Source: Aquipluma nitroreducens
Lineage (GTDB): Bacteria > Bacteroidota > Bacteroidia > Bacteroidales > Prolixibacteraceae
Assembly (NCBI RefSeq): GCF_009689585.1
Contig: NZ_AP018694.1
Coordinates: forward strand, 1,364,001 to 1,428,000
DNA length: 64,000 bases
Reading direction: 5' to 3'
Both the position numbers and the translations under genes were made by a program. Shown here piece after piece: positions 9,268 through 23,255 of the stretch. How positions within the stretch are numbered: the first letter of the stretch is position 1; the number at the start of each line of letters is the position of its first letter. The notes beneath the pieces are model-generated. The model saw nothing but the letters and a program-made list of their open reading frames with translations. It was not told the DNA's origin and did not search any database.

Positions 9268-10477
9268 CTATACTGCGCGTTGAGCCTTCGCGCTTTTTTT
9301 GCTTCGCTCTTTGGCTTGTAGTTCAAGTGATTTGATAATTTCAACGTCAGACTCAAAACCAAATAGTCTACTGGTAACAGATTCTTTAGTCTGAATTACT
9401 ATTTTGTAGTCATATCCTTTCCCAAATGATGCTTTTTCAAGTTTTTCAATGGCATCTTCAAGTGTTTCATAATCTCCCTGAATTTTAACTGGAACAGGTC
9501 CACCATTAATTTGTTCTTTTAGAAATCCGTCAATACCAGAATTTCTTTGAACTGGAGTGGCATTAATATTTTGAAGAATGGCAAGCTGCTTTTCTGTTTT
9601 TTCAAGATAACTTTCAGTCCCTTTATTTAATAACTCTGATTCTGTAATTACCATTTCATCAAGTCTCGATTCTGCTAAATCTACAGCATCCTTTGACTTG
9701 TCGATGCCAATATAATTTCTTTTTAAATGCTTTGCAGAAACACAAGTTGTACCGCTACCACAAAATGGATCTATGACAATATCTCCTTCATCGGTCACAA
9801 TACGAATAATCTGGTTAAGCAGCAGCACAGGTTTTTGAGTAGGATATCCTGTTCTTTCTTTCGCTTTAGGATTAAGATATGGTATATCCCAAACATCTGA
9901 TAAAGGAACACCTTTCTTTTCTTTACCAATTACAACATTCCCATCTTCATCCTTTTTATATACAGACTTCCCATTTTCATCTCGTTCTCGCTCTTGTAAA
10001 ATCCGGTCAATATTTGTTGTTGCTGAGTAGTCGGTATATATCGTATTGAATTTAAAATCCCTTGTCTTAGAGTAAAAGAATATTATTTGGTGTGCATTTA
10101 ATAACCCTTTTTTTGAATTTGACCAACGTTTATATGACCAAACAATCTCGCTCTGAAAATTATCACGACCAAAAACCTTGTCAAGAATAATTCGAATGTT
10201 GTGCGAAGCTGTTTTATCGCAATGAAGAAAAACACTACCGGTATCTTTCAAAACTCGTTTGCTTTGGATTAATACATTTTCAATGAGCTCCAAATATTCA
10301 TTCAAAGAATTGTATTTATCTTCAAACTCGTAAGTTTTTGTATTATCCCTGGTTTTAAGAGAATGTGTTTTTTGAGTAAAGAAAGGTGGGTCGAAATAAA
10401 CTAAGTCAATACATTCAATTTCTTAGTTCCTTTAACTTATCCTGACAATCACCATGTATTATTTTATTGGTTTCCAT
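9268..10477 (-). pseudogene. Type II DNA methyltransferase (N6-A/N4-C, beta class), frameshifted
   Basis: A beta-class amino-methyltransferase expected to protect sites cut by the adjacent endonuclease. A start at 10477 gives METNKIIHGDCQDKLKELRN and then TGA (10417-10415). One base later, in the +1 frame, the protein resumes with ECIDLVYFDPPFF (catalytic DPPF motif), the target region with WSYKRWSNSKKG, the TGYPTQKPVLLL segment and the SAM motif VIDPFCGSGTTCVSAK, and runs to 9268. Removing one T from AATTGA restores a continuous gene. The frameshift removes the normal start from the catalytic domain, whose frame has no upstream ATG before the DPPF motif. The 3' end carries an extra roughly 150-residue tail. 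It overlaps the endonuclease stop by 14 bases. A true frameshift, a sequence error or recoding are all possible. Confidence 0.82.
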
Positions 10478-11102
10478 CTTCAGGTGTCCTTTCATTAGCA
10501 ATTTCTGTTAAAATAGCCTTTAAGTCAACTCCACTATAAGCTTTTAAAAAGTTCCAAGCTTCATCACCTCCATAATATTCTCCTTCAACACCAGCATATA
10601 AAGTTTTCAATGTCTCTTGTATTCTAATTGCTTGGGCTCTCTGAGGGTAATAAAACATCACTCGAATAGGCTTGTAACCGTGTCCCTTTATAACTTTAAC
10701 TCTAGTGTGCTCCTTGGTAATATGATCTCCATCTGTAGTTGCATCTCGCCATTTAACTTCAATAGCATCACTCCCATTCAGAAAATCTATCTCGAATGTA
10801 TTAGGTCTTTGTCCTAATGTATTTTCCACTTTGGTTTTAATCCCATCTTGGAACTTGTAATTTAGACACAGAGTAGCGGCTTCTTCCAAAAACGAACCAG
10901 CATATTTGTACAGAAATCGCCCAGTGTTTTGATAAATATAGATTAGCTCTCCTTCTTCTGTTGTAATTCCTAAAACTCTATAGATTAGATAATGAGAATT
11001 ATCATCAGATTTCATTGCCTCTTTTCGCTCTTCAATTCTTTCTTTGAGATTAGAAGCGTAAATCCCCGCTAATTCTTTTATTTTATTCTTTAGATCTTCC
11101 AT
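10464..11102 (-). CDS. ApaLI-like type II restriction endonuclease
   Basis: A 212-residue protein that I recognise as resembling the ApaLI family (prototype recognises GTGCAC). The PD-(D/E)xK core is visible as FEIDF then IEVKWRD, with the Asp, Glu and Lys in the expected order (about residues 124-140), inside the conserved-looking stretch NTLGQRPNTFEIDF and DGDHITKEHTRVKVI. The gene has no frameshift, so an active nuclease is possible. It is the first gene of an R-M pair and overlaps the methyltransferase start by 14 bases, an order in which the methyltransferase depends on translation through the nuclease gene. The specificity is a family inference and not shown by the sequence. Confidence 0.68.
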   Translation of the reverse strand: MEDLKNKIKELAGIYASNLKERIEERKEAMKSDDNSHYLIYRVLGITTEEGELIYIYQNTGRFLYKYAGSFLEEAATLCLNYKFQDGIKTKVENTLGQRPNTFEIDFLNGSDAIEVKWRDATTDGDHITKEHTRVKVIKGHGYKPIRVMFYYPQRAQAIRIQETLKTLYAGVEGEYYGGDEAWNFLKAYSGVDLKAILTEIANERTPEDGNQ

Positions 11103-11331: not shown

Positions 11332-11385
11332 ATCGCTAAAATAAACAACCCCTGACCCGAAAAGCAGCTTTCGAATCAGGGGTTG
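11332..11385 (-). terminator. Terminator after the thioredoxin-reductase fusion gene
   Basis: A perfect 10-base stem, CAACCCCTGA / TCAGGGGTTG (11346-11355 and 11376-11385), with further partial pairing inside (CGAAA ... TTTCG). On the minus strand it is followed by TTTATTTTAG. It ends the minus-strand cassette 15.7-11.4 kb. The rest of the 320-base gap (11103-11345) is AT-rich with no gene. Confidence 0.75.
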
Positions 11386-11422
11386 CAGTAGTATCGAAAT
11401 AGATTCTTGCGAATCTTGCCAA

Positions 11423-12691
11423 TTATCCTATTTCCCGAGTAATCGCAATCGCGGCAATGGTTCCGTCGGCGATAGCAGTAGTAATCTGGCGGTATTTTTT
11501 GCTGGTTACATCGCCCACGGCAAACACGCCGTCGATGTTGGTGCGCTTATCCTCATCGGTTTTGATGTAGCCCCACTGGTCGAGTTCCAACTGGTTGCCA
11601 AACATTTCGAGGTTCGGTTTCTGGCCAATAAACACGAAAATTCCGTCCGATGTCAGGGTCTTCTTTTCCTTGGTTTTCAGGTCTTCCACCTCCACTTCCA
11701 TTTTGTCGCCAGCTTTGCGGAATGCGCGTGGTTCGTGCGAAAGCAGGAATGAAATCTTCGGGTTGGCAAATGCTTTTTCCTGCGCTGTTTTGTTGGCCTG
11801 CAACTGGTCGAACTGGTGAACGATGGTAATTTTCGACGCGAACTTCGAGATAAAATCGGCTTCCTCGATGGCTGAGTTTCCACCGCCAATCACCACCACT
11901 TCCCGATCCACAAAATACTTGGCGTCGCAGGTGGCGCAATACGAAATGCCCTGTCCTTTGTACTCCAGTTCGCCGGGAATGCCAATACGGTTGGGCGAAG
12001 TTCCGGTGGCAATGATGATTCGTTTGGCGCGAATGGTTTCCTGCCCGTCTATCATGATTTCCTTTTTCTGCAAATCGACGTGCGTCACGTCAACCGCCAC
12101 CTTATAAGTCGTTCCGCAGCGTTTGGTTTGCTCCGACATGTTGTGCGAAAGCATGTATCCGGGCTGCGGATCAATAAATCCGGGGTAATTCGACACCACG
12201 TGGGTGGTCGAAACATTTCCGCCGGGCAACGCGATGTCAACCAAAACGGTGTTGATTTTGGCCTGGCAAAGGTATAAACCGGCTGTCAGTCCACCCGGAC
12301 CAGCACCCAGAATGGCCACATCCACCTCGGTTACAATCGGTTTCTGCTTGGCGATAATCTCATTCACCTTTTCTTTGCCGATCACACTTTTCAGGTTGCG
12401 AACAATCTCCGACCGTTTAATTCCTCCTGAAAGGCGGCTGGTCACTTCTTCTCCATCCTGATAAAAAAGCAACGTTGGCGACGATTTTACGCCAAGTTGA
12501 TCGGCCAGTTCGCGGTTTCCCTGCCGGAAGATTTTGATGAATTTGACTTCACCCTTAAACAGCGGATCCAACGATTCGAGTTTGGGAAAAAGCGCTTCGC
12601 AAGGCGGACATTCAGTACTGTAAAAATCGAGCACCACATTGCCCCCTTTTACTACTTCGCTTTCAAATTCCGATGCATTTATCTCTTTCAT
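11423..12691 (-). CDS. Thioredoxin-thioredoxin reductase fusion
   Basis: A 422-residue flavoprotein joining thioredoxin (residues 1-105) to an NADPH-thioredoxin reductase (about 120-422). The thioredoxin half has the active site ECPPC (Cys28, Cys31) and the cis-Pro in SSPTLLF (Pro72). The reductase half has the FAD motif ILGAGPGGLTAG (about 127-138), the redox pair CATC (about 250), the NADPH motif VVIGGGNSAIEEA, and the closing FAD motif VFAVGDVTSKKYRQ. Known fusions often place thioredoxin at the C-terminus; here it is N-terminal. It likely self-delivers electrons from NADPH to protein or small-molecule disulfides. It is the last gene of the ArsM-like/radical SAM cassette, where a thiol reductant would serve both the methyltransferase and a Cys peptide. 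Confidence 0.88.
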   Translation of the reverse strand: MKEINASEFESEVVKGGNVVLDFYSTECPPCEALFPKLESLDPLFKGEVKFIKIFRQGNRELADQLGVKSSPTLLFYQDGEEVTSRLSGGIKRSEIVRNLKSVIGKEKVNEIIAKQKPIVTEVDVAILGAGPGGLTAGLYLCQAKINTVLVDIALPGGNVSTTHVVSNYPGFIDPQPGYMLSHNMSEQTKRCGTTYKVAVDVTHVDLQKKEIMIDGQETIRAKRIIIATGTSPNRIGIPGELEYKGQGISYCATCDAKYFVDREVVVIGGGNSAIEEADFISKFASKITIVHQFDQLQANKTAQEKAFANPKISFLLSHEPRAFRKAGDKMEVEVEDLKTKEKKTLTSDGIFVFIGQKPNLEMFGNQLELDQWGYIKTDEDKRTNIDGVFAVGDVTSKKYRQITTAIADGTIAAIAITREIG

Positions 12692-12745
12692 GGTTATTGA
12701 TATTTTGGTTTTTTACTCAGTCTTTTATGAAGCGCTATCATTAAA

Positions 12746-12806
12746 ACCCCTAAATCCCCTGAAGGGGACTTCAAAGCCTCACCTTATAGGGGAGGTTTGG
12801 AGGGGT
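12746..12806. repeat. GC-rich palindromic element, copy 1
   Basis: About 61 bases with imperfect inverted ends: ACCCCTAAATCCCCTGAAGG on the left, and AGGGGAGGTTTGGAGGGGT on the right. It lies between the DUF1847 and thioredoxin-reductase genes. Related elements are at 14681-14820 and 34453-34536. Confidence 0.65.
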
Positions 12807-12821
12807 AAAACCACACATTGG

Positions 12822-13370
12822 TTATAATTCCAATGCCTTCAACGGCGCGTGGTTGTGAACCCGATCTTTCACCACCAGGGTTGTGCAGTCGGCCTTCACT
12901 TCGCGCTGAAACAAAATGTCGTGCCCCAAACAAAGCCCCACCATCAGCACCAAATCCACCTTTTCGCTGTTCATCTGCATCGCCTGCCCAATGGGATTGC
13001 ACGAAACGGTGCAAAACGAACTTTCCGGATTCACTTCATTTTGCGGAATTCCACCAACCGTACAAGAAACCGACCTGACATTCAATCCATTACTACGAAT
13101 AATCCCGGCAATTTGTTGGACTTGTTTTTCCATCCCGTAGCAATAGGCCAAACCAATGCGGCGGTAGTTCATTTTCTTCGAGAACTCCACAATCTCCTGA
13201 AGCCGCGACAAGGTTCCGGCGCGTCCAAAATCAACCAGTTCGGCCGCCGCCTGCACAATTTCGGGTTCAGCGGCATACTTTCTGATGGCCTCTTCCGGTT
13301 CGAAAGAAGTTGCTTTGCAGGTTTCCGTTTTCCGGCAAATTTTATCGTAGGTGCAATTGGTGCAATCCAT
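12822..13370 (-). CDS. DUF1847-family Cys-rich protein
   Basis: A 182-residue protein of the DUF1847 family, whose function is unknown. The N-terminus has four closely spaced cysteines (Cys3, Cys6, Cys12, Cys18) in the pattern CxxC-x5-C-x5-C that suggests a metal or Fe-S site. More cysteines follow in AYCYGM, VSCTVGG, FCTVSCNPIG, VGLCLGHD and ADCTT. A Rossmann-like pattern (YRRIGLAYCYGMEKQ) precedes them. It starts one base after the radical SAM stop, so the two are coupled. It could load, sense or traffic a metal or metalloid, or act as a redox partner of the radical SAM enzyme; both are inference. Confidence 0.75.
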   Translation of the reverse strand: MDCTNCTYDKICRKTETCKATSFEPEEAIRKYAAEPEIVQAAAELVDFGRAGTLSRLQEIVEFSKKMNYRRIGLAYCYGMEKQVQQIAGIIRSNGLNVRSVSCTVGGIPQNEVNPESSFCTVSCNPIGQAMQMNSEKVDLVLMVGLCLGHDILFQREVKADCTTLVVKDRVHNHAPLKALEL

Positions 13371-13371
13371 C

Positions 13372-14673
13372 TTATTCGTTGAAATAGTGCGCGATACCCA
13401 ATTCCAGTAGCTCGGTAACCGGACGGCAATCGTGACTGTGCAGCGAGCCGTTGTAGTTTTTGGCCATCGAAGCGCAGCCTCCGCCGCAAATCAGGCTCAA
13501 ATTGCAGTCGCGACACTTCGGAATCGACAAAATATCGCGCTCCTGCCATTCCTCAACCGCTTCGGTGTATTTCTTCACTTCCGGATAAAACGTGCCCAGA
13601 CTTTCGCCGTGCTTGCCCACCGTGGCGGTGCAGGCATACACATTTCCGGTGAAATCGAATGCCCACTCGGTTTTGGTTCCGGTGCAGGCATCGAACAATG
13701 GCTCAGGCATCTCGCCCTGTTCGAACAAAAACTTTGAGACTGAAAAGGCAGGCTTGTGAAACTCGGCGATGTGCGGATGTGTCTTCAGCAGCGCATACAA
13801 ATCTTCGTACAAATTGAGCCGCGAATACAGCTTTTGCTGATTGGCCTGGCATTCGTGTAACTCGTAATTCCGACCTAATTGGGTTTTAAACAGTGGGGAT
13901 GCAGTCCAACCTTTATTGATGGCAAACTGTGCCAAATCGGGTAGATTATTAATATTTTGTTTATCAACCACCATACGGAGATTAACCGGAATATTGTTTT
14001 CAATTAACAAATCAACTCCACGAACAATGCGATCGAAAGTTGGATCTCCGCCTTTCAGATAGCGCCGTTGGTTATGTATTTCACTGGTCCCATCGAGTGT
14101 TACCTGAATTTCGCGGATAATTCCCTTTTTGAGAATTGGAATGTATTCTTCCAGATGATAACCGTTAGTCACAGCCGCAATTTCGAGTTTATGTTCTGCG
14201 GCTTTTTGAATAATATATTCGATATTTTCCTTGTGGCGTGGAGCATTCATGAAAGGTTCGCCACCAAAAATGGTAATGTATTTTCTCCTTCCTGAAAATT
14301 CTTTCAGAATATAATCAAAAAACGAATCAGTAACTTCTTTCGACAGAGCAACGGGTAAAGCTTCGTAGCCAGCCTGATAACAATAGGAACAATCGAAGTT
14401 GCACGAGTAGTTGGTCACAAAAAAAATCTGAACTTCGTCCTTTTCGCGATCATCCAAAAATTTCAGGTATTTCTCACGAAACAATCGTTTCTCCTGAACC
14501 AGATCAACAATGTAGCCATTTTCAATCAGTTCCTGATTATCTACCGAAATGTCCTTAAGTTGATTGTAGGCTGTCTGATCGAGTATATCTGCCTGCCCTG
14601 ATAATGCATTTATGACAAACCAATCGTCAGAATCCTTAATTTTTGAGGTGATGTTATATTTGGAAAGTTGCAT
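13372..14673 (-). CDS. Radical SAM/SPASM peptide-maturase-like protein
   Basis: A 433-residue radical SAM enzyme. The cluster-binding motif CxxxCxxC is Cys91-Cys95-Cys98 in SCNFDCSYCYQ, followed by the SAM-binding segments TIFGGEPFMN and VTNGYHLEE. The C-terminal third is a full seven-Cys SPASM domain: C-x12-G-x4-C, then CRDC-x5-C-x3-C and a final Cys in SHDC, binding two auxiliary Fe-S clusters. SPASM enzymes typically modify ribosomal peptides (thioether or C-C bonds) or act as anaerobic sulfatase maturases. A 31-codon Cys peptide gene lies immediately upstream. An in-frame ATG at 14727 is inside a repeat element, so I use the ATG at 14673 (MQLSKYNI). DUF1847 follows one base after the stop. 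Confidence 0.85.
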   Translation of the reverse strand: MQLSKYNITSKIKDSDDWFVINALSGQADILDQTAYNQLKDISVDNQELIENGYIVDLVQEKRLFREKYLKFLDDREKDEVQIFFVTNYSCNFDCSYCYQAGYEALPVALSKEVTDSFFDYILKEFSGRRKYITIFGGEPFMNAPRHKENIEYIIQKAAEHKLEIAAVTNGYHLEEYIPILKKGIIREIQVTLDGTSEIHNQRRYLKGGDPTFDRIVRGVDLLIENNIPVNLRMVVDKQNINNLPDLAQFAINKGWTASPLFKTQLGRNYELHECQANQQKLYSRLNLYEDLYALLKTHPHIAEFHKPAFSVSKFLFEQGEMPEPLFDACTGTKTEWAFDFTGNVYACTATVGKHGESLGTFYPEVKKYTEAVEEWQERDILSIPKCRDCNLSLICGGGCASMAKNYNGSLHSHDCRPVTELLELGIAHYFNE

Positions 14674-14680
14674 GGCAAAC

Positions 14681-14820
14681 GGAAGCCCCCTTCCCGTTCC
14701 CCCAAAGGGGGAAAGCTTTGGAGCCATTGATTAAAAATTTATACTTGGTTTAACTGTGTCTTTCGATGAAAAATGAGCCTCCCCCTCTCCCCTCCTTTGA
14801 AGGGGTCGGGGGAGGCTTCC
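14681..14820. repeat. GC-rich palindromic element, copy 2
   Basis: 140 bases with terminal inverted repeats GGAAGCCCCC / GGAGGCTTCC and internal CCCCAAAGGGGG and CCTTTGAAGGGG palindromes. It fills the gap between the peptide gene and the radical SAM gene, and creates the spurious upstream start of the latter. Size, inverted ends and intergenic placement are like a miniature inverted-repeat element. Confidence 0.65.
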
Positions 14821-14825
14821 GGCGC

Positions 14826-14921
14826 TTAATCGTGGCATCCGGCAATAATCTGAGATTGTTTAGCACAACATTGTGCCTGTTTAATCTGACCTTTTTTTAC
14901 TTTTTTTACTAAACTCTTCAT
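14826..14921 (-). CDS. 31-residue Cys peptide, candidate RiPP precursor
   Basis: A gene too short for routine callers: ATG at 14921, TAA at 14828-14826, 31 residues. The first half is strongly basic and lysine-rich (Lys at 2, 6, 7, 9, 10, 14), like a leader. The second half has a vicinal pair Cys18-Cys19 and a third Cys29 in the ending AGCHD. It lies between an ArsM-like methyltransferase and a radical SAM/SPASM gene, all on the same strand. Short Cys-bearing peptides beside SPASM enzymes are the classic layout of ranthipeptide/sactipeptide-type precursors. Three thiols could equally form a trithiolate metalloid site. I recognise no named family. That it is translated and modified is inference. 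Confidence 0.6.
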   Translation of the reverse strand: MKSLVKKVKKGQIKQAQCCAKQSQIIAGCHD

Positions 14922-15054
14922 AAAACTGATTTTGGTGTTGATTAAACTATTAGGAATAAAGGTATTCAAAACGAACGAAACTTCATCAATTAAACTTCAA
15001 CATTAATGACTACCTTCAAACTTTCATTGAAAAAATTGCGCTCCGGACGACTCC

Positions 15055-15074
15055 AGACGCAAGATCGTGCGTCT
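15055..15074. repeat. Short palindrome AGACGCA-N6-TGCGTCT
   Basis: A perfect 7+7 inverted repeat just after the ArsM-like stop, on the peptide-gene side. The phrase AGACGCAAGATCGTGCGTCT resembles dispersed intergenic palindromes found in many bacterial genomes. It could act as a weak transcription attenuator between methyltransferase and peptide, but no T-run follows on the minus strand. Confidence 0.5.
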
Positions 15075-15081
15075 CTACCAG

Positions 15082-15726
15082 TTACCCGCAACAACTAAAC
15101 TCATCTTTTTCGGCGGTAATGGTAAAACTGGATACGTGAATTTTTCCTTTTGGGTAAGGCTGACTTTCTTCCAATACTTTTACGTAACGAAATCCGGCAC
15201 CTTTAATAATATTCAGGTATTCTGAACGGGTAACAGATCCAGCCCAACATTCGGCAACAGCCTCAGGGTCGTTGGCATATTCTTCAGGTACCGGTTCGCT
15301 TGAATAGATATCGCTGATGACAAAGCGTCCGCCATTTTTCAGGATACGGAAAATCTCGCCCCAAACCTTGCGCTTGTTGGTTACATGGTTCAGCGTGCAA
15401 TTCGAGACAATCAGGTTGGCAGTTTCGTCGGGCAACGGAATTTCTTCCAGATCAGCCTGAATGAATTTCACATTTTCGACACCCATTTTGGCGGCTGTCG
15501 AAGTCGCTTTTCGAATCATCTCCTCGGTGACATCAATTCCGTACACAAATCCGCCCTCACCAACTTCTTCGGCCAGACGTAAAACATCAGTTCCGCGGCC
15601 ACTTCCCAAATCGATGCAAACCTCGTTCAATTTTGCATCACTTTTATCGACTGCTCCTCCACACGAAAGACAACAGGTATCATTTGCAAGTGAAGAATAT
15701 CTTCCAGCTATTTCAATTGTGTTCAT
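15082..15726 (-). CDS. ArsM-like (arsenite) SAM methyltransferase
   Basis: A 214-residue class I methyltransferase. SAM motif I is CIDLGSGRGTD (37-47), then YGIDVTEEMI, and IQADLEEIPLPD. Two cysteines in ArsM signature positions are present: Cys110 in SNCTLN and Cys160 in AECWAGS. Their spacing of 50 equals that of the arsenic-binding Cys174/Cys224 of the algal enzyme CmArsM (family knowledge). Extra cysteines lie at the N-terminus (18, 19, 22) and the extreme C-terminus (SCCG). It probably methylates As(III) or another thiophilic element. The frame is open from a TTG at 15735; I use the ATG at 15726, 13 bases after the predicted transcription start. It heads the cassette ending with a thioredoxin-reductase fusion, a known reductant type for ArsM. 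Confidence 0.75.
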   Translation of the reverse strand: MNTIEIAGRYSSLANDTCCLSCGGAVDKSDAKLNEVCIDLGSGRGTDVLRLAEEVGEGGFVYGIDVTEEMIRKATSTAAKMGVENVKFIQADLEEIPLPDETANLIVSNCTLNHVTNKRKVWGEIFRILKNGGRFVISDIYSSEPVPEEYANDPEAVAECWAGSVTRSEYLNIIKGAGFRYVKVLEESQPYPKGKIHVSSFTITAEKDEFSCCG

Positions 15727-15745
15727 TGTACTCAAATTTAAAGTG

Positions 15746-15776
15746 CAAAATTATAACAATAATTAAAACAAAACAA
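15746..15776 (-). promoter_or_regulatory. Promoter of the ArsM-like/peptide cassette
   Basis: On the minus strand TTG (15776-15774), 20 bases, then TAATTTTG (15753-15746), matching the Bacteroidota consensus with an exact -7 box TAnnTTTG. The start would fall near 15739. Confidence 0.55.
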
Positions 15777-16154: not shown

Positions 16155-16751
16155 ATGATTTACGAAGCGTTACAGATTTTAAGCGAACAACTGGACAAAC
16201 ACCTGTCTGATTCCGGATTAAAAAATCTGGTTATACTTGAAAACATTGCCCTTCTTGAAACGGCAGATGAAAATGCGGATAATCTTAAAGGCAAAGTGGT
16301 TCTCACTTTGATCAATCTTCAGGAGGAATCTGCTCTGCGAAATATTCCAAATTATAAAATTAAAGATGGCAAGACTGAATACCGAAATCCACCGGTTCAT
16401 TTGAATTTTTACCTTCTGATAAGCGCCAATTGTGATACTTACGACAAATCGCTGCGAAGCTTGTCGAAAACCATTCAGTTTTTTCAAGGAAAGAAGGTAT
16501 TTACATCGACCAATACGGTTTACAATCGAAACAATGTGGCTTTTGATGTAATCGACTATTTCCGGTTCAATCTGGAATTATATACCCTGAGCCTCGAAGA
16601 ATTGAATCACGTTTGGGGAACCCTGGGTGGCCGTCAGCTTCCTTCAGTGGTTTACAAAGTACAACTGCTGGAAATCGAGCAAGACATCAAACTTGCAACA
16701 TCAGGAGTAATTACACACATCGGCGGAGACTTAAACGACATCAACCAATGA
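16155..16751 (+). CDS. eCIS DUF4255 protein (Pvc16/Afp16-like terminator)
   Basis: A 198-residue protein with the DUF4255 (Pvc16 N-terminal) pattern: MIYEALQILSEQLDKHL, LENIALLETAD, VVLTLINLQEESALRN and the proline-containing segment PPVHLNFYLLISAN. Afp16/Pvc16 caps the tube and sheath at the tail end and fixes particle length. It opens the eCIS operon, where homologues commonly sit. It ends in ATGA with the next gene (4-base overlap). Confidence 0.85.
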   Translation: MIYEALQILSEQLDKHLSDSGLKNLVILENIALLETADENADNLKGKVVLTLINLQEESALRNIPNYKIKDGKTEYRNPPVHLNFYLLISANCDTYDKSLRSLSKTIQFFQGKKVFTSTNTVYNRNNVAFDVIDYFRFNLELYTLSLEELNHVWGTLGGRQLPSVVYKVQLLEIEQDIKLATSGVITHIGGDLNDINQ

Positions 16752-17623
16752 GCTTTTCCATTCAATATAAACCACTTTTTAAGGTTGACCTGCTTCACCT
16801 TTATTTCCTGAACAACGGGCTGAAAACGTTTTTCACGATGAATGTCACTGAAGCTGCCAAGCAAATGGACGGCTATGCACTGAATTCATTTCTAAGCATC
16901 GCTCCCACCCTCGAAACTCAGCAAAAACTAAATGGATATAGCCTGGTTTACAGAAATTTAAATTCCGGATTTACAATCTGGACAAAAGTCAGCAATACGG
17001 ATAATGCGATACCATTTATTCCTCTTCCTGATGATTTGAGCCTGACTTTCCTGGTAAAAATTAACGATCCGGCATTTTATAATTACACCAATCTTAAGCT
17101 CGACAACCAGGGCAAAATCAATTATTTTTCGAACCGGCGGCTGGCGACCGAAGTTCCTGCATTTCCGCTGATCAACAAGTCGGGCGATCATTTCAATATC
17201 AATGAAACTTTTGCACTCACTCCGGAAAGCGCAGCATCTGAATTGACAAACCTTTCTACGGTTGAAAAGACTAATCTTTTGGGCCTGATCAGGTTGCACA
17301 TGAAAGCTGATGTTCCTGCTCTTAATATCATCGATTCAAACGGAAAAATTTCGAATCCACCGAAGAATTTCGAACTGGTTTTTGCCAACCGGAAAACACT
17401 TTGGCGGTACATTTTCAGGAAAGACCCCAAAGTAAAAAACAACGACGATGTTAAAATGGAAGGCGCAGACCCCAATGTTTTGATCTCCAAATCGGAACAG
17501 CCACTCACTCAAAAGGGATTTATTTCAGTTGAACTTGGAGGAAAAGATTTGCCCAATCCTGACTCAAAGCTGATAAAACCTGATTCGCTCAATTCAAAAT
17601 ACTATTCTGAAATATACATGTAA
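16748..17623 (+). CDS. eCIS-associated protein of unknown function
   Basis: A 291-residue protein between the DUF4255 gene and the sheath gene; I do not recognise a named domain. It starts at the ATG overlapping the previous stop (16748); an upstream frame extension to 16613 is a shadow of the previous gene. No signal peptide or membrane helix is present. It looks soluble and beta-rich (for example LVYRNLNSGFTIWTKVSN, LSLTFLVKINDPAFYNYTNL) with an aromatic-rich middle and VSVELGG-like strand near the end. A gene of similar size commonly occupies this slot in Bacteroidota eCIS loci. Likely a structural or assembly component at the cap end of the particle, by position only. Confidence 0.6.
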   Translation: MSFSIQYKPLFKVDLLHLYFLNNGLKTFFTMNVTEAAKQMDGYALNSFLSIAPTLETQQKLNGYSLVYRNLNSGFTIWTKVSNTDNAIPFIPLPDDLSLTFLVKINDPAFYNYTNLKLDNQGKINYFSNRRLATEVPAFPLINKSGDHFNINETFALTPESAASELTNLSTVEKTNLLGLIRLHMKADVPALNIIDSNGKISNPPKNFELVFANRKTLWRYIFRKDPKVKNNDDVKMEGADPNVLISKSEQPLTQKGFISVELGGKDLPNPDSKLIKPDSLNSKYYSEIYM

Positions 17624-17641
17624 AACTAAAAACACAAGATT

Positions 17642-19732
17642 ATGGCAACAGCTTACAAAACACCAGGTGTTTACGTCGAGGAAATTGCAAAATTCCCGCC
17701 TTCGGTAGCACAAGTTGAAACGGCTATACCTGCTTTTATTGGCTATACCGAAAAGGCAACCAATAAAATCAAGGGAGACTTAAAAGGAGTTCCGACCCGG
17801 CTCACCTCTTTACTTGAATATGAAACCTGGTTTGGGTTTGCCAAGCCCGAAAAAACCATCAGCGTCACCATTAACGATACGCTGGTAAACGGCACCACCA
17901 GCCGCGCCATAGTGGTCGATCAGCCATCGGCACGCGAGCCTTTCCTGATGTATTATTCCATGCAAATGTATTTTGCCAACGGTGGCGGACCATGTTACGT
18001 TGTTTCAGTTGGCCGCTACGGTTCCGACCTCGATGCCGCTGACACACAGGTTACTTCAATCAATAACTTCGATGATTTAAAAAAAGGACTTGGCGCCGTT
18101 GAAAAAGTGGACGAAGTGACCTTGATTGTTTTTCCGGATGCCACAGCTTTGTCAACCGCTTCGGAGTTTTACGGGCTGTACAACGATGCCCTGACCCAAT
18201 GCAACAAATTGCAGGATCGCTTTACCATTATCGATACACTGAGTTACGATTCCACCAGTCCGACCGATTCGAATATTGATGATCTGAGAAACTTCATTCT
18301 TTCCGACAAAGACATTATTAAATATGGTGCGGCTTATTACCCATTCCTGAAAACCATTCTCGATTACCAATATAATCCGAAAGACATCACTATTGCGCAT
18401 TATTCCTACAGTGCTGAGGCATACGAAACCATCAAGAAAAACCTGGAAGCCATCGAAAACCTGGCAACCGGAATGCCTGCCACAGTTAAAAAGCTGGTGG
18501 ACCTGACAACCACCCCTGGAAATATTGCCGGTGACGTGAGTAATGTGCTGTTCAAAATGTATGACAGCGTTGCCGGATTTGACCTTGGAGGTGTTTTTGC
18601 AACCAACGACACCAAGAAAACAGATTTTCTCGCTTTGGTCGAAACATTGTTGGCCTCGCTTGATAAACTGGCTGACTTTAAAGCCAAACTGAATGCTGAA
18701 GCAACTGCGGCAGCAACAACCATTCAGGACGAAAATCCGGTCATTGCAACCAGTATCAATGCCGCACTGGCCGCATTCAATGCCGATTTTGTGGGCGCCG
18801 GAAAAATTGACGAAGTAACTGCCAACCTGCACGATTTATACTCGAAAATGCAGGCAGCCAATACCGATGTCAAGGTTAAAAATATCCTGAATGTGAATGC
18901 GGTTAATTTCGATGCCGAACTGAAGAAACTTGAAAGCTACACACCGCTAAACACTCAGGCCGGAATCGTTTCAACCGTTGACGCCTTCGCCAACGTTGGA
19001 GCCAATTTAACGGCTGTTGGCACTGAAATTAAAAAAGTTGAAGGCAAAGACAAAAACAATGGCGCCCTGAACGGACGGAAATTAAGCGATGTTGCAGCTG
19101 TTGACAATTCAACCTACAACAAAATATTAACTGCAATCGGAAATCTTCCGCTTGAGTTACCACCTAGTTCGGCAATTGCCGGAGTTTATGCGAGGGTCGA
19201 TAAAGACAGAGGTGTGTGGAAAGCTCCGGCAAATGTCGGACTGAACTATGTGACCAACCTTTCGGTGAAAATCACCAACGAAAGCCAGGAAAGCCTGAAT
19301 GTGGATACAACCGCCGGAAAGTCAATTAATGCCATCCGCGCATTTACCGGCAAGGGAATTCTGGTTTGGGGAGCGCGTACACTCGCCGGAAACGACAATG
19401 AATGGCGCTATGTTCCAGTCCGCCGCTTCTTTAACATGGTTGAAGAATCGGTTAAAAAAGCGACTTCGCAATTTGTTTTCGAGCCCAACGATGCCAACAC
19501 CTGGGTGAAAGTCCGGGCCATGATCGAAAACTTCCTGATTCTTCAATGGAGAGCCGGAGCTTTGGCTGGGGCAAAACCTGAACAAGCATTTTATGTACGG
19601 GTTGGACTGGGTCAAACCATGACAGCCGAAGACATCCTGAACGGATACATGCACATCGAAATCGGCATGGCAGTGGTTCGTCCGGCTGAATTCATCGTGC
19701 TGAAATTCTCACATAAATTACAGGAAGCTTAA
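17642..19732 (+). CDS. eCIS contractile sheath protein with large insertion
   Basis: A 696-residue sheath subunit that forms the contractile outer cylinder. The N-terminus has the sheath hallmark YKTPGVYVEEIAKFPPSVA and IPAFIGYTEKA. The C-terminal domain is complete: GVWKAPANVGL, SINAIRAFTGKGILVWGART, WRYVPVRRFFNMVEESVKKA, FEPND and VRVGLGQTMT then MAVVRPAEFIVLKFSH. Known Afp/PVC sheaths are about 350-480 residues. The extra length comes from an Ala/Lys/Asp-rich, helix-forming insertion at about residues 245-490 between the two conserved halves, likely displayed on the outer surface. Only one sheath gene is present, whereas Afp has three. Confidence 0.92.
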   Translation: MATAYKTPGVYVEEIAKFPPSVAQVETAIPAFIGYTEKATNKIKGDLKGVPTRLTSLLEYETWFGFAKPEKTISVTINDTLVNGTTSRAIVVDQPSAREPFLMYYSMQMYFANGGGPCYVVSVGRYGSDLDAADTQVTSINNFDDLKKGLGAVEKVDEVTLIVFPDATALSTASEFYGLYNDALTQCNKLQDRFTIIDTLSYDSTSPTDSNIDDLRNFILSDKDIIKYGAAYYPFLKTILDYQYNPKDITIAHYSYSAEAYETIKKNLEAIENLATGMPATVKKLVDLTTTPGNIAGDVSNVLFKMYDSVAGFDLGGVFATNDTKKTDFLALVETLLASLDKLADFKAKLNAEATAAATTIQDENPVIATSINAALAAFNADFVGAGKIDEVTANLHDLYSKMQAANTDVKVKNILNVNAVNFDAELKKLESYTPLNTQAGIVSTVDAFANVGANLTAVGTEIKKVEGKDKNNGALNGRKLSDVAAVDNSTYNKILTAIGNLPLELPPSSAIAGVYARVDKDRGVWKAPANVGLNYVTNLSVKITNESQESLNVDTTAGKSINAIRAFTGKGILVWGARTLAGNDNEWRYVPVRRFFNMVEESVKKATSQFVFEPNDANTWVKVRAMIENFLILQWRAGALAGAKPEQAFYVRVGLGQTMTAEDILNGYMHIEIGMAVVRPAEFIVLKFSHKLQEA

Positions 19733-19759
19733 CAAGTATAAATCTTAAAAAATATAATC

Positions 19760-20194
19760 ATGGCAGCAAATTACCCATTGGTCAAGTTCCATTTTCAGGT
19801 TGAATGGGGTGGAACAAAAATAGGATTTACCGAGGTTTCCGGTTTGGACGTGGAAACTGAAGTGGTTGAATACCGCGATGGTGCAAGTCCGGAGTATTCA
19901 AAAATAAAAATGCCGGGCATGCAGAAATTCAGCAACATTACACTGAAACGCGGCACATTCAAGAGCGATAATGAATACTTCAAATGGTGGAATACTGTAA
20001 AGCTCAACACGATTGAGCGCCGCGACATCACCATCAGCCTGCTTAATGAAGAACACGCGCCGGTGATTACCTGGAAGGTTAAAAATGCCTGGCCCAGCAA
20101 AGTCCAGTCAACCGACCTGAAAGCCGAAGGCAACGAGGTGGCCATCGAGTCGATGGAAATTGTGCACGAAGGATTAAGCATTCAAAACGAATAA
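19760..20194 (+). CDS. eCIS inner tube protein 1 (gp19/Hcp fold)
   Basis: A 144-residue tube protein of the phage T4 gp19-like family (Afp1/Pvc1 type). Typical residues are FHFQVEWGG, FTEVSGLDVETEVVEYRDG, the loop KIKMPGMQKFSNITLKRG, and the ending AWPSKVQSTDLKAEGNEVAI then ESMEIVHEGL. It polymerises into the rigid inner tube inside the sheath. It lies 27 bases after the sheath gene and two bases before a second tube gene. Confidence 0.9.
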   Translation: MAANYPLVKFHFQVEWGGTKIGFTEVSGLDVETEVVEYRDGASPEYSKIKMPGMQKFSNITLKRGTFKSDNEYFKWWNTVKLNTIERRDITISLLNEEHAPVITWKVKNAWPSKVQSTDLKAEGNEVAIESMEIVHEGLSIQNE

Positions 20195-20196
20195 CA

Positions 20197-20628
20197 ATGA
20201 GCAATTACTATCCTCCTTTGGGATTTCACTTTAAAGTTGAATTTGCCAATCTGAGTGGCGAATATCAGTTTCAATCGGTCTCGGGCTTAAACGTTGAGCT
20301 CGAAACAGAACAGATTGCCGAAGGGGGAGAAAATCGGTTCAAGCACAAATTGCCTGTTTCAACGCGCTATCCAAACCTGGTTTTAAAGCGCGGGATCAAG
20401 GTCGATTCGGCGCTGACCAAATGGTGCAGGGATGCGTTGGAAAACTTCGACATCAAGCCGACCAACATCACCATCAGTTTGCTGAACGAAAACCACGAAC
20501 CGCTGATGACCTGGAATGTGGTGCATGCTTACCCGCTGAAATGGTCGGTTTCAGAGTTTAATGCCGAGAAAAGTCAACTGGCCATTGAATCGATTGAACT
20601 GGCTTACAACTACTTTAATATTCAGTAA
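20197..20628 (+). CDS. eCIS inner tube protein 2 (Afp5/Pvc5-like)
   Basis: A 143-residue paralogue of the preceding tube protein with the same fold marks: FHFKVEFANLSG, FQSVSGLNVELETEQIAEGG, KLPVSTRYPNLVLKRG, TISLLNENHEPLMTW and SQLAIESIELAYN. In Afp and PVC a divergent tube paralogue forms the ring joining tube to spike. Its position just before DUF5908 and LysM genes fits that tube-initiator role. It is followed after one base by the DUF5908 gene. Confidence 0.88.
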   Translation: MSNYYPPLGFHFKVEFANLSGEYQFQSVSGLNVELETEQIAEGGENRFKHKLPVSTRYPNLVLKRGIKVDSALTKWCRDALENFDIKPTNITISLLNENHEPLMTWNVVHAYPLKWSVSEFNAEKSQLAIESIELAYNYFNIQ

Positions 20629-20629
20629 T

Positions 20630-20791
20630 ATGCCTGTCGAAATCAGAGAATTGACGATCAAAATCACGGTAGCCGACCAACCGGCACAATCTCCAAGTCC
20701 TGAAGCAAATAGTCAGGAGAGTAAAGATGTGATTATAGCGACTTGCGTTGAACAGGTTTTGGAAATTTTATCGAAAAAACAAGAACGATAA
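20630..20791 (+). CDS. eCIS DUF5908 small protein
   Basis: A 53-residue protein starting MPVEIRELTIKITV, the signature start of DUF5908 proteins found between tube and LysM genes in eCIS loci (the slot of Pvc6/Afp6). A short acidic, Ser/Pro-rich linker leads to a C-terminal helix (DVIIATCVEQVLEILSKK). The start at 20630 follows the previous stop by one base; the longer frame from 20561 is a shadow. Its role is unknown; by position it may help baseplate-tube assembly. Confidence 0.82.
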   Translation: MPVEIRELTIKITVADQPAQSPSPEANSQESKDVIIATCVEQVLEILSKKQER

Positions 20792-20793
20792 TT

Positions 20794-21510
20794 ATGAGCG
20801 GCGAACTGATTAAACTACGGATAAAAGCCTACAAGGACGCGAAATTTTCGGACGAAGTTGCCGACGGTGAATTCAAATCGCTCTTGAATCCTGATAAGTA
20901 TGCATTCAAATACAAGATTGAATCAAACCACGACCAGGCTTCAGGAACAAGCAAATCGTCGCCGAAATTCAATAAAATTTTGCCTGAAGATTTAAGCCTT
21001 GAATTTGTTTTCGACCGCACGGGAGTGATTACCGATTATGGCTCTCCCGGAGCTGCTGACGACCAAACGTTCAAAGATGAAGGTGGTGGCATTATCGACG
21101 ACATCGAAAAGTTTAAGAAAGTAGTTTTCGATTATAATGGCGACGAACACAAGCCCAATTACCTGATCATTTCGTGGGGAACGCTCCTTTTTAAGGGAAC
21201 GCTCACCGAAATGGATATCACGTACAAGCTGTTCAAGTCCGACGGGACTCCGCTCCGCGCGACGGCAAGCGCCAAATTCAAGGGGTTTGTTGAAGACAAC
21301 CTGCGGGTTGCCATGGAAAATAACAGTTCCCCGGATTTAACACACATCCGCACAGTAAAAGAAGGCGACAAGCTGCCTTTGATGGCGTTCCGGATTTACG
21401 GCGATTCCAAATATTACCTTGAAGTCGCGAAAGCCAACAACATCACCAACTTCAGAAAACTGACCGTGGGAAGCAAAATTTTCTTTCCACCCATTCAAAA
21501 AACATCGTAA
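20794..21510 (+). CDS. eCIS LysM-domain baseplate/tube protein (Afp7/Pvc7-like)
   Basis: A 238-residue protein of the CIS tube-protein family with a C-terminal LysM. The N-terminal domain (to about 175) has FKSLLNPDKYAFKYKIESN, KILPEDLSLEFVFDRTG and LIISWGTLLFKGTLTEMDITY, and the LysM lies at about 185-235 (RTVKEGDKLPLMAFRIYGDS ... VGSKIFFPP). In PVC, Pvc7 links the tube to the VgrG-like spike hub. It sits two bases before the spike gene. LysM here is a structural joint and need not bind peptidoglycan. Confidence 0.9.
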   Translation: MSGELIKLRIKAYKDAKFSDEVADGEFKSLLNPDKYAFKYKIESNHDQASGTSKSSPKFNKILPEDLSLEFVFDRTGVITDYGSPGAADDQTFKDEGGGIIDDIEKFKKVVFDYNGDEHKPNYLIISWGTLLFKGTLTEMDITYKLFKSDGTPLRATASAKFKGFVEDNLRVAMENNSSPDLTHIRTVKEGDKLPLMAFRIYGDSKYYLEVAKANNITNFRKLTVGSKIFFPPIQKTS

Positions 21511-21512
21511 AC

Positions 21513-23255
21513 ATGCCTCAACGAGTCATACAAACTTCGCAGCCGTCCGATTTGGTTACCCCGAAAATTTTGATTGAAGGGTCCGAACTTTCCCATGCCT
21601 ATTCGGTCATGAATATTGTGGTGGAAAAGGAGATCAACCGCATTCCGACTGCGCGGATCATAGTACTCGATGGCAACCCTTCAGGGCAGGATTGGGAACT
21701 GAGCAACAAGGATTTGTTTTTACCCGGAAAGGAAATCGAAATTAAAGCCGGTTATCATTCCGACGAGGAAACGATTTTCAAAGGCATCGTGATCAAGCAC
21801 AGCCTGAAAATCAGGACCAGTCAGTCGTTCCTGATTGTGGAATGCAAGGACAAGGCAGTGAAAATGACCATTGGCCGCAAAAGCAAATATTTCTACGAAA
21901 GCAAAGACAGCGATATCCTGGGTGAAATCATCGGAACGTATGGTTTGGAAAATGATGTTGAAGCAACCAGCGTTCAGCACAAAGAACTGGTTCAATACAA
22001 TGTTTCCGACTGGGATTTTTGCGTGGTCCGCGCTCAGGCCAACGGAAAAGTACTGGTTGTTGACGACGGGAAAATCTCGGTAAAGAAACCCGATGCCGGT
22101 CAGTCCGAAGTCGAAACTGTTTCATACGGCGCCACCATGCTCGATTTTGATGCCGAAATGGATGCCCGCAACCAGTTTCAAAAAGTGACTTCGTATGGCT
22201 GGAATGCCGCCGATCAGACCATTCAGGAAATGGAAGCCAGCAACCCGGCGGTGAGTTCAAACGGAAATGTTTCGTACGATGATCTGGCCGCTGTGATTGG
22301 CCTTTCAAACCTGGAACTGAAAAATGGCGCTGCTGCCCCCGACGTTGCTTTGCAGGCCTGGGCCGATGCCAAAACGCTGTTCAACCAATTTTCGAAAATC
22401 CGCGGAAGGGTGAAATTTCAGGGAATTCCGGCAGTAAAACCCAATACCACGCTGAAACTCGAAGGGGTTGGAAACCGATTCAACGGCAAAGTTTACGTTT
22501 CAGCCATTCGCCACCAGATCGCCGAAGGCAACTGGACGGTGGATGCCCAGTTCGGAATCGACCCCAACTGGTTTTCCGAAACCGTTGAAATCAACGATCA
22601 GCCCGCGGCGGGGTTACTGGCAGCTGTGCAAGGTTTGCAAATCGGAATTGTGACCCAGCTCGAAAACGATCCGGATGGCGAAAACCGAATCCTGGTTCGA
22701 ATGCCCATCATTTCGGGCAGCGAGCAGGGAATCTGGGCCCGGGTATCCACACTCGATGCCGGTAGCGACCGCGGTTCGTTTTTTCTTCCTGAAATCGGTG
22801 ACGAGGTGATTGTCGGCTTTATCAACGGCGACCCCGATCATCCGGTGGTTTTGGGAATGATGAACAGCAGCGCGAAAGCCGCACCGCTCACCGCAAGCGA
22901 CGACAACCACGAAAAGGGTTTTACCACACGCAGCAAAATGAAATTCATTTTCAACGACGATAAAAAGTCGGTGGTGCTGGAAACTCCCAAAGGCAAAAAA
23001 ATTACAGTCGACGAAGATGCCGGAATCATCCAAATTGAAGACGATTTCTCGAATAAAATCACGATGGATTCCGCCGGAATTGCACTTGAAAGTCCGAAGG
23101 ATATCACTATCAAAGCCACCGGCGATGTAAAAATTGACGGGATGAATGTTACGATAACTGCCAACGCGCAATTTAAAGCCAGCGGAAATGCAGGCGCCGA
23201 ATTATCAACCGGAGCTATAGCCAAAATACAGGGTTCAATGGTGCAGATTAATTAA
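21513..23255 (+). CDS. eCIS VgrG-like spike (Afp8/Pvc8)
   Basis: A 580-residue hub/spike protein. Residues 1-370 form the gp27-like hub (ILIEGSELSHAYSVMNIVVE, FKGIVIKHSLKIR). Residues about 375-455 form the gp5-type OB fold (GIVTQLENDPDGENRILVRM, GSFFLPEIGDEVIVGFINGD, HPVVLGMM). The last 100 residues form the trimeric beta-helix needle, with short alternating repeats such as KKITVDEDAGIIQIED and ITIKATGDVKIDGMNVTITA. It is full length. It caps the inner tube and carries the PAAR tip encoded next. Confidence 0.93.
   Translation: MPQRVIQTSQPSDLVTPKILIEGSELSHAYSVMNIVVEKEINRIPTARIIVLDGNPSGQDWELSNKDLFLPGKEIEIKAGYHSDEETIFKGIVIKHSLKIRTSQSFLIVECKDKAVKMTIGRKSKYFYESKDSDILGEIIGTYGLENDVEATSVQHKELVQYNVSDWDFCVVRAQANGKVLVVDDGKISVKKPDAGQSEVETVSYGATMLDFDAEMDARNQFQKVTSYGWNAADQTIQEMEASNPAVSSNGNVSYDDLAAVIGLSNLELKNGAAAPDVALQAWADAKTLFNQFSKIRGRVKFQGIPAVKPNTTLKLEGVGNRFNGKVYVSAIRHQIAEGNWTVDAQFGIDPNWFSETVEINDQPAAGLLAAVQGLQIGIVTQLENDPDGENRILVRMPIISGSEQGIWARVSTLDAGSDRGSFFLPEIGDEVIVGFINGDPDHPVVLGMMNSSAKAAPLTASDDNHEKGFTTRSKMKFIFNDDKKSVVLETPKGKKITVDEDAGIIQIEDDFSNKITMDSAGIALESPKDITIKATGDVKIDGMNVTITANAQFKASGNAGAELSTGAIAKIQGSMVQIN

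Follow-up and report, generated by a model that had tools for sequence, protein, structure and literature searches.

Conserved genes around a 31-codon cysteine peptide point to an undescribed peptide-based system for sulfur-loving elements or thiols in two bacterial phyla

Most known ribosomally synthesized and post-translationally modified peptides (RiPPs) made by radical S-adenosylmethionine (SAM) enzymes are antibiotics, signals or cofactors, and PQQ and mycofactocin have their roles inside the cell. CteB, the SCIFF maturase (PDB 5WGG, 5WHY), is a thioether-forming enzyme with a RiPP recognition element (RRE) and a SPASM domain. This report is about a gene cassette in Aquipluma nitroreducens in which an enzyme of this general kind stands next to a 31-codon peptide with three cysteines, an ArsM-like methyltransferase and a thioredoxin-thioredoxin reductase (Trx-TrxR) fusion. 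The stretch of DNA analysed, called the window here, is 64,000 nucleotides long (contig NZ_AP018694.1, positions 1,364,001 to 1,428,000).

Other described enzymes bear on the comparison. The ranthipeptide maturase PapB is reported to tolerate zero to six residues between Cys and Asp (PMC9413430). In the arsenic methyltransferase CmArsM, the reported As(III) ligands are C72, C174 and C224 (PMC12608789, PMC7248198). AS3MT, an orthologue of ArsM, is reported to be stimulated by thioredoxin, thioredoxin reductase and NADPH (PMC12608789).

The cassette consists of five minus-strand genes, running from position 15735 down to 11423 of the window, within one 5.7 Mb contig. In order, they encode the ArsM-like methyltransferase, the peptide, the radical SAM/SPASM enzyme (rSAM), a DUF1847 protein and the Trx-TrxR fusion, after which comes a terminator-like hairpin. 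Checked on the window sequence, this order, the strand and the coordinates are as given in an initial annotation of the same DNA.

The peptide gene (14826 to 14921) encodes MKSLVKKVKKGQIKQAQCCAKQSQIIAGCHD, with Cys18, Cys19 and Cys29 and the Lys-rich first half that had been described. Only this one of the 206 ATG-started open reading frames (ORFs) of 25 to 45 codons in the window has a CC...C-x-x-stop pattern. For comparison, 80 rSAM loci were read: 22 from genome contigs scanned by pattern with the rSAM protein, 49 and a further 9 (G384 accounts for two contigs; some of the 22 may come from the 49 genomes). Every open frame in the 2 kb upstream of rSAM was scored by the similarity of its last 16 residues to those of the window peptide. 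This demanded no particular residue, only overall similarity. A homologue is present in 75 of the 80 loci, all scoring at least 59, where the next-best frame anywhere scores 17. Its stop lies between -1 and 1075 bases before the rSAM start, with a median of 81 and a distance over 400 in two loci. Of the five loci without it, L025, L072 and L074 begin inside the rSAM gene and L022 has a 5'-incomplete rSAM; L136 (G822, Fibrobacterota) genuinely has none.

The nine residues of A-C-C-A-K and G-C-H-D are invariant in 70 of 70 distinct peptide DNA sequences, and each of their codons occurs in two to four forms. The initial annotation had proposed both searches, for a short ORF beside homologous SPASM genes and for invariance of the three cysteines, and each came out as it had expected. 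Within the core, Q and S are each present in 68 of the 70. The leader varies in length and sequence and the core is conserved, which is RiPP-like. Over the full gene, the window and 16 close relatives have 5, 3 and 21 variable sites at codon positions 1, 2 and 3; change is concentrated at third positions, which is not the pattern of non-coding DNA. A previous, pattern-picked count (78 copies, 72 distinct, pN/pS 0.157) is not used for invariance, because its pattern fixes eight of the nine residues beforehand. The 31-codon ORF is a conserved gene tied to this SPASM subfamily.

The rSAM enzyme (13372 to 14673, 433 residues) is a putative peptide maturase. Its start was initially placed at 14727; most likely it is 14673 (MQLSKYN), as in relatives. 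The two cysteine motifs noted at the outset are complete and invariant in 23 of 23 aligned proteins. CxxxCxxC is made up of C91, C95 and C98. The SPASM motif, in its general form CX9-15GX4C-CX2CX5CX3C-C, is here C330-x12-G343-x4-C348 ... C387xxC390x5C396x3C400 ... C416. The predicted fold is CteB-like over the whole length, RRE part included, and CteB is the closest solved relative by sequence as well as by fold. The N-terminus, with three predicted strands and three helices, is RRE-like in this whole-length comparison, in which CteB aligns from residue 4. The nearest enzymes by fold have peptides or proteins as substrates. In a tree of rSAM proteins, the nearest rows to the window enzyme are metagenome-assembled genomes of the Prolixibacteraceae.

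The methyltransferase (15082 to 15735, about 214 residues from the ATG at 15726) has cysteines at 18, 19, 22, 110 and 160. When a profile of 31 members of its family was compared with solved structures, the top five were arsenic methyltransferases. C22, C110 and C160 align with C72, C174 and C224 of CmArsM and are invariant in 31 of 31 members; the spacing of Cys110 and Cys160 had been recognised before, and Cys22 completes the triad. Judged by its sequence, the enzyme is a separate ArsM subfamily with intact arsenite-binding cysteines.

This subfamily follows rSAM closely. A survey of 393 genomes of the window's order found rSAM in 49 and ArsM-like matches in two classes, 48 genomes at E <= 2.4e-57 and the others listed at E >= 1.5e-43. 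All 48 carry rSAM, and no order genome without rSAM has the subfamily, in keeping with the methyltransferase link first suggested. The contig of G263, the sole rSAM genome without it, starts inside rSAM. The gene is at the locus itself in 66 of 71 and 8 of 9 loci (partial in L135). More than one ArsM-like match was seen in 24 of 49 rSAM genomes against any match in 83 of 344 others (p 5e-4), where 24 is an upper bound, not size-corrected, and the first and second matches in G311 may belong to a single gene that was interrupted. At the rSAM locus of G311 the methyltransferase gene looks interrupted.

Pfam finds Trx (PF00085) and TrxR (PF07992) domains in a single protein (11423 to 12691), with CPPC and CATC motifs respectively, so the annotated fusion stands. 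It scores 319 bits against TIGR01292, below the cut-off of 343. At E <= 1e-100, the fusion occurs in 48 of 49 order rSAM genomes and in 0 of 40 randomly drawn order genomes without rSAM; G100, which lacks it at this cut-off, has a shortened copy at the locus. In four genomes of one genus, only methyltransferase, peptide and rSAM are together, and the fusion is encoded elsewhere in the genome at 60-61% identity. Because of these counts and these separately encoded copies, Trx-TrxR is best seen as part of the system and not as a chance neighbour. Among the Fibrobacterota genomes with rSAM, 3 of 5 have the fusion; G891 and G822 do not.

The order survey found the peptide in 48 genomes, 47 of them with rSAM. 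The copy in G170 was missed by the search at E <= 0.01, yet is present at the locus. Distances between rSAM proteins correlate with those between ArsM proteins (r = 0.85) and TrxR proteins (r = 0.80), and 0 of 2000 permutations are as high in either case, although vertical descent alone would also give such correlations.

DUF1847 (12822 to 13370) behaves differently from the other four. The protein is what it was said to be, matching PF08901 with 127 bits (cut-off 25) and carrying four N-terminal cysteines (3, 6, 12 and 18). It had been presented as an equal part of the set, but is directly downstream of rSAM in just 18 of 71 loci. It is optional, an accessory, and therefore the other four genes form the core.

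Searches were also made further afield. Among 395 genomes of the phylum there were 11 rSAM matches, six of them of a 56-59% identity class or the window itself, and five distant ones at 29-31%. These five (G443, G773, G553, G717, G739) were excluded, as no other core gene was found at E <= 1e-5 in the stretches read. Upstream of one distant SPASM enzyme (L128:4482-4990, minus strand) are two tandem 73-residue ORFs with ICECCID motifs, candidate precursors of another RiPP-like system. From the phylum of a Fibrobacteres locus, 150 genomes yielded five with rSAM. At E <= 1e-30, two Rhodococcus plasmids gave matches of just 27-28% identity and phages gave none.

Taken together, these genes tentatively suggest a four-gene system, at somewhat less than an even chance: a cysteine RiPP matured by rSAM that would act in the cell with an arsenite-site methyltransferase and its own NADPH-driven Trx-TrxR. 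The RRE-like domain would bind the Lys-rich leader (MKSLxKK...). The SPASM enzyme would then cross-link the fixed core, AQCCAKxSx4GCHD, once or more, most likely by a thioether from one of the three cysteines; one option is Cys29 with His30 or Asp31. The thiols left over would bind a soft electrophile, arsenite or another thiophilic element, or less likely sulfane sulfur. This product would work with the ArsM-type methyltransferase, whose arsenite-binding cysteine triad appears intact, and the dedicated fusion would pass electrons from NADPH to the peptide, the methyltransferase or both. The product would stay in the cell. Nine unchanging core residues across two phyla argue for such a role, as for PQQ or mycofactocin, and so does the rarity of exporter, peptidase or immunity genes, which are seen in no more than a few loci. 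A more specific version is rather improbable: the matured peptide would be a dedicated metalloid scaffold whose cross-linked CC...C core holds arsenite or another soft element, the system's ArsM-type enzyme would methylate it on the spot, and the system's Trx-TrxR would recycle it.

A number of observations weigh against the four-gene system. G037 carries the peptide (E 2e-5) but lacks the ArsM subfamily, the fusion and, at E <= 1e-40, rSAM. G822 has rSAM with no peptide in the 12.3 kb read around it, and neither the ArsM subfamily nor Trx-TrxR. G891 has rSAM and the peptide, no Trx-TrxR at E <= 1e-100, and a methyltransferase matched in part. A second cluster in G331 (L132:196-5628) contains ArsM, thioredoxins and Trx-TrxR without peptide and rSAM; it looks as if these two were lost or gained as a unit. 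In L078, L083 and L094 a TonB-dependent receptor gene intervenes, and the methyltransferase lies some 3 kb upstream. No precursor peptidase was recognised in the neighbourhood, in one member each of 18 further clusters (clusters in at least 3 loci). The neighbours are rich in sulfur and thiol genes, and an association with the arsenite exporter family Acr3 weakens among large genomes (29/34 vs 10/14 at 3.3 Mb or more, p 0.42). Loss of the short ORF, or of the methyltransferase and peptide together, beside conserved SPASM genes had been named as speaking against such a system. Apart from the single exceptions of G037, G822 and the second cluster of G331, this was not seen.

By eye, the second cluster of G331 also has rhodanese-like, DUF302-like and DUF6132-like proteins.

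What the peptide would carry is a matter of weighing arsenic against sulfur. The co-occurrence sample consisted of 40 of the 49 rSAM genomes and 40 others, for which 60 of 343 were picked at random and every third was then left out. Nine rSAM genomes (G146, G169, G241, G243, G263, G369, G380, G384, G392) were dropped for low completeness, split rSAM or genus redundancy. Acr3 is found in 34/40 rSAM genomes vs 16/40 others (p 6e-5), and keeps p 0.022 in a logistic model with genome size. The check for arsenic genes proposed initially thus gave a signal, which does not hold at the larger genome sizes already mentioned; the arsenic co-occurrence is largely a genome-size effect. Just upstream of the methyltransferase in L061, L073 and L099 are ArsR/SmtB-type regulators with a Cys-rich C-terminal tail, which possibly sense the cargo. 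The one in L061 matches the metalloregulator model NF033788 with 70 bits (cut-off 55) and BigR weakly (40 vs 155). The triad, these regulators and the weak Acr3 signal suggest arsenic.

The neighbours of the peptide copies that stand apart from rSAM suggest sulfur. A doubtful though serious contender is that the mature peptide carries sulfane sulfur or serves as a peptide redox cofactor in a sulfur or thiol module, and that the substrate of the ArsM-like enzyme is a thiol, persulfide or selenol instead of arsenic. The peptide of G037 (L147:8001-8111, minus strand) adjoins a class-I methyltransferase, a DsrE-like lipoprotein, HdrA-like proteins, TusA and a DsrE-family protein, a setting that favours sulfur chemistry. 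The surroundings of a second copy in G311 (L148:6965-7087, plus strand) are much alike and include OsmC and a class-V aminotransferase; both copies are accompanied by TusA-like, HdrA-like, Crp/Fnr-like, Trx and TrxR genes. The rSAM loci themselves often have extra thioredoxins, of which some carry, by eye, a lipoprotein-like signal sequence. In the neighbour clusters from 71 loci, one member of each typed by Pfam, DUF302 recurs in 20 (cluster 3), a DUF6132 membrane protein in 19 (cluster 4), OsmC in 3 (cluster 31) and Crp/Fnr-type cyclic-nucleotide-binding regulators in 13. However, HdrA/Qmo-like proteins are not clearly enriched: 14/40 vs 7/40 at E <= 1e-80 (p 0.13). At E <= 1e-30 it is 31/40 vs 17/40 (p 0.003), and 28/34 vs 8/14 (p 0.14) at 3.3 Mb or more; with genome size in the model p is 0.77. 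The co-occurrence tests do not decide between arsenic and sulfur. Sulfur chemistry would also leave unexplained why the methyltransferase conserves its whole arsenite triad.

The same triad argues against a purely tailoring enzyme. If the ArsM-like protein methylated the RiPP itself (a Cys thiol, His or the C-terminal Asp), and Trx-TrxR merely kept precursor or enzymes reduced, the three As ligands of CmArsM would not be needed, yet all are invariant. The second methyltransferase copy in G331, with neither peptide nor rSAM beside it, does not fit either. Tailoring would explain the near 1:1 occurrence of methyltransferase, peptide and rSAM, and the genus that keeps just these together at the locus; all the same it is distinctly improbable. 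Least probable is that the peptide stays unmodified and serves as a small chaperone for a metal or metalloid, with rSAM acting elsewhere, for example on DUF1847, Trx-TrxR or a small molecule. Vicinal cysteines with a third can bind As(III) unmodified, as in ArsD, and G037 does have the peptide without this rSAM. But such a chaperone would have little use for an rSAM gene downstream of it in 75 of 80 loci, nor for an enzyme with an RRE-like start whose nearest fold relatives take peptides or proteins as substrates.

Some neighbours are specific to clades. These are an ABC ATPase (3 loci) and TonB-dependent receptors (three clusters, 3-4 loci each). The receptor genes lie within the cassette or immediately behind it in two clades, one with L078, L083 and L094, the other with L067, L068, L070 and L071; the second also has a DUF5074 protein. 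A clade-specific link to outer-membrane uptake is possible.

Directly 3' of the peptide gene is a strong hairpin (14764 to 14825, minus strand, inverted repeat I6) that the initial annotation had missed. It folds at -34.6 kcal/mol (z -3.17, 1 of 200 shuffles equally good), is followed by UUUUU and is attenuator-like. Attenuators after the precursor gene are common in RiPP operons. The hairpin is not universal, since just 31 of 75 loci have 60 nt behind the peptide stop that fold at -12 kcal/mol or better, a count without shuffle control. The terminator annotated after the last gene is there as a hairpin with a 19-pair stem and a T-rich tail (11345 to 11386, minus strand), but terminator-like matches as a class number 7 in the window vs 6.4 in shuffles.

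A near-consensus promoter had also been annotated. It was rejected: sigma-70-like matches number 7, against 8.8 expected in shuffles. The Bacteroidota promoter consensus, TTTG-N17-23-TAnnTTTG, was not found, only TAnnTTTG alone at 15753 and 15740. By eye, there are GC-rich repeat-like elements between genes at 12740-12800, 14680-14720 and 14776-14817. Similar ones follow the peptide gene in L008, L009, L016 and L020, not in all relatives.

Beyond the cassette, at 9268-11102 on the minus strand, an ApaLI-like restriction endonuclease (PF09499) and a DNA methylase (PF01555) lie between the Trx-TrxR gene and that of a 212-residue protein. This restriction-modification cassette was probably inserted, because the 212-residue protein directly follows Trx-TrxR in close relatives (e.g. 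L006). On the other side, at 16155-23255 on the plus strand, genes like those of contractile injection systems (Pvc16 N-terminal domain, tail sheath, baseplate OB protein) are arranged divergently to the cassette, and in several close relatives the cassette adjoins relatives of these genes too (clusters 9, 11, 13 and 14).

The link of the peptide with an arsenite-site methyltransferase and a private thioredoxin system leads to a testable proposal, namely that a peptide assists the chemistry of arsenic, sulfur or another thiophile. As a set, the genes are compact enough for transfer to E. coli. If the four-gene system is real, the SPASM family would gain a new class of substrate. If the peptide is in fact a metalloid scaffold, it would be a RiPP dedicated to organometalloid chemistry and shared by two bacterial phyla.

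The initial annotation knew of no described system with this gene set. Nor was a description found among the literature matches listed, which are open-licence papers only, and the main text of PMC10352776, on RiPP mining in Bacteroidales, has neither 'arsen' nor 'thioredoxin'. Among the NCBIfam matches listed, precursor, rSAM and ArsM subfamily reach no model's cut-off. The gene set points to an undescribed peptide-based system for sulfur-loving elements or thiols.

CteB has 19% identity to the window rSAM, which scores 99 bits against the SCIFF maturase model where 425 are needed; the precursor also differs. SCIFF loci are, to our knowledge, not linked to ArsM or Trx-TrxR. The best NCBIfam scores, over most of the length, are for CefB, the Cys-every-fifth maturase (NF038107), with 160 bits, and TIGR04463 with 128, against cut-offs of 600 and 525, and the window precursor is without the every-fifth Cys pattern. 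Clo7bot scores 113 of 600. PapB (NF047865), with 117 of 340 bits, has a Cys-to-Asp/Glu thioether chemistry that would suit the invariant C-H-D end, but the window peptide has no Cys-X3-Asp repeats.

On the methyltransferase side, CmArsM (PDB 4FR0 etc.) is among the top structural relatives, and all three of its As(III) cysteine ligands are kept. The window enzyme is shorter, scores 185 bits against PRK11873 (cut-off 263), forms a separate subfamily and, among the 393 genomes, always has this rSAM in the same genome. Selenocysteine-containing ArsM fusions (PMC13188914) similarly join an ArsM-type domain to a putative metal-binding or redox domain, DUF2284 in NF041536 and AhpD in NF041537, and their names include no peptide or SPASM partner. 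The parts of the cassette are of known kinds; its function has a real chance of being new in kind.

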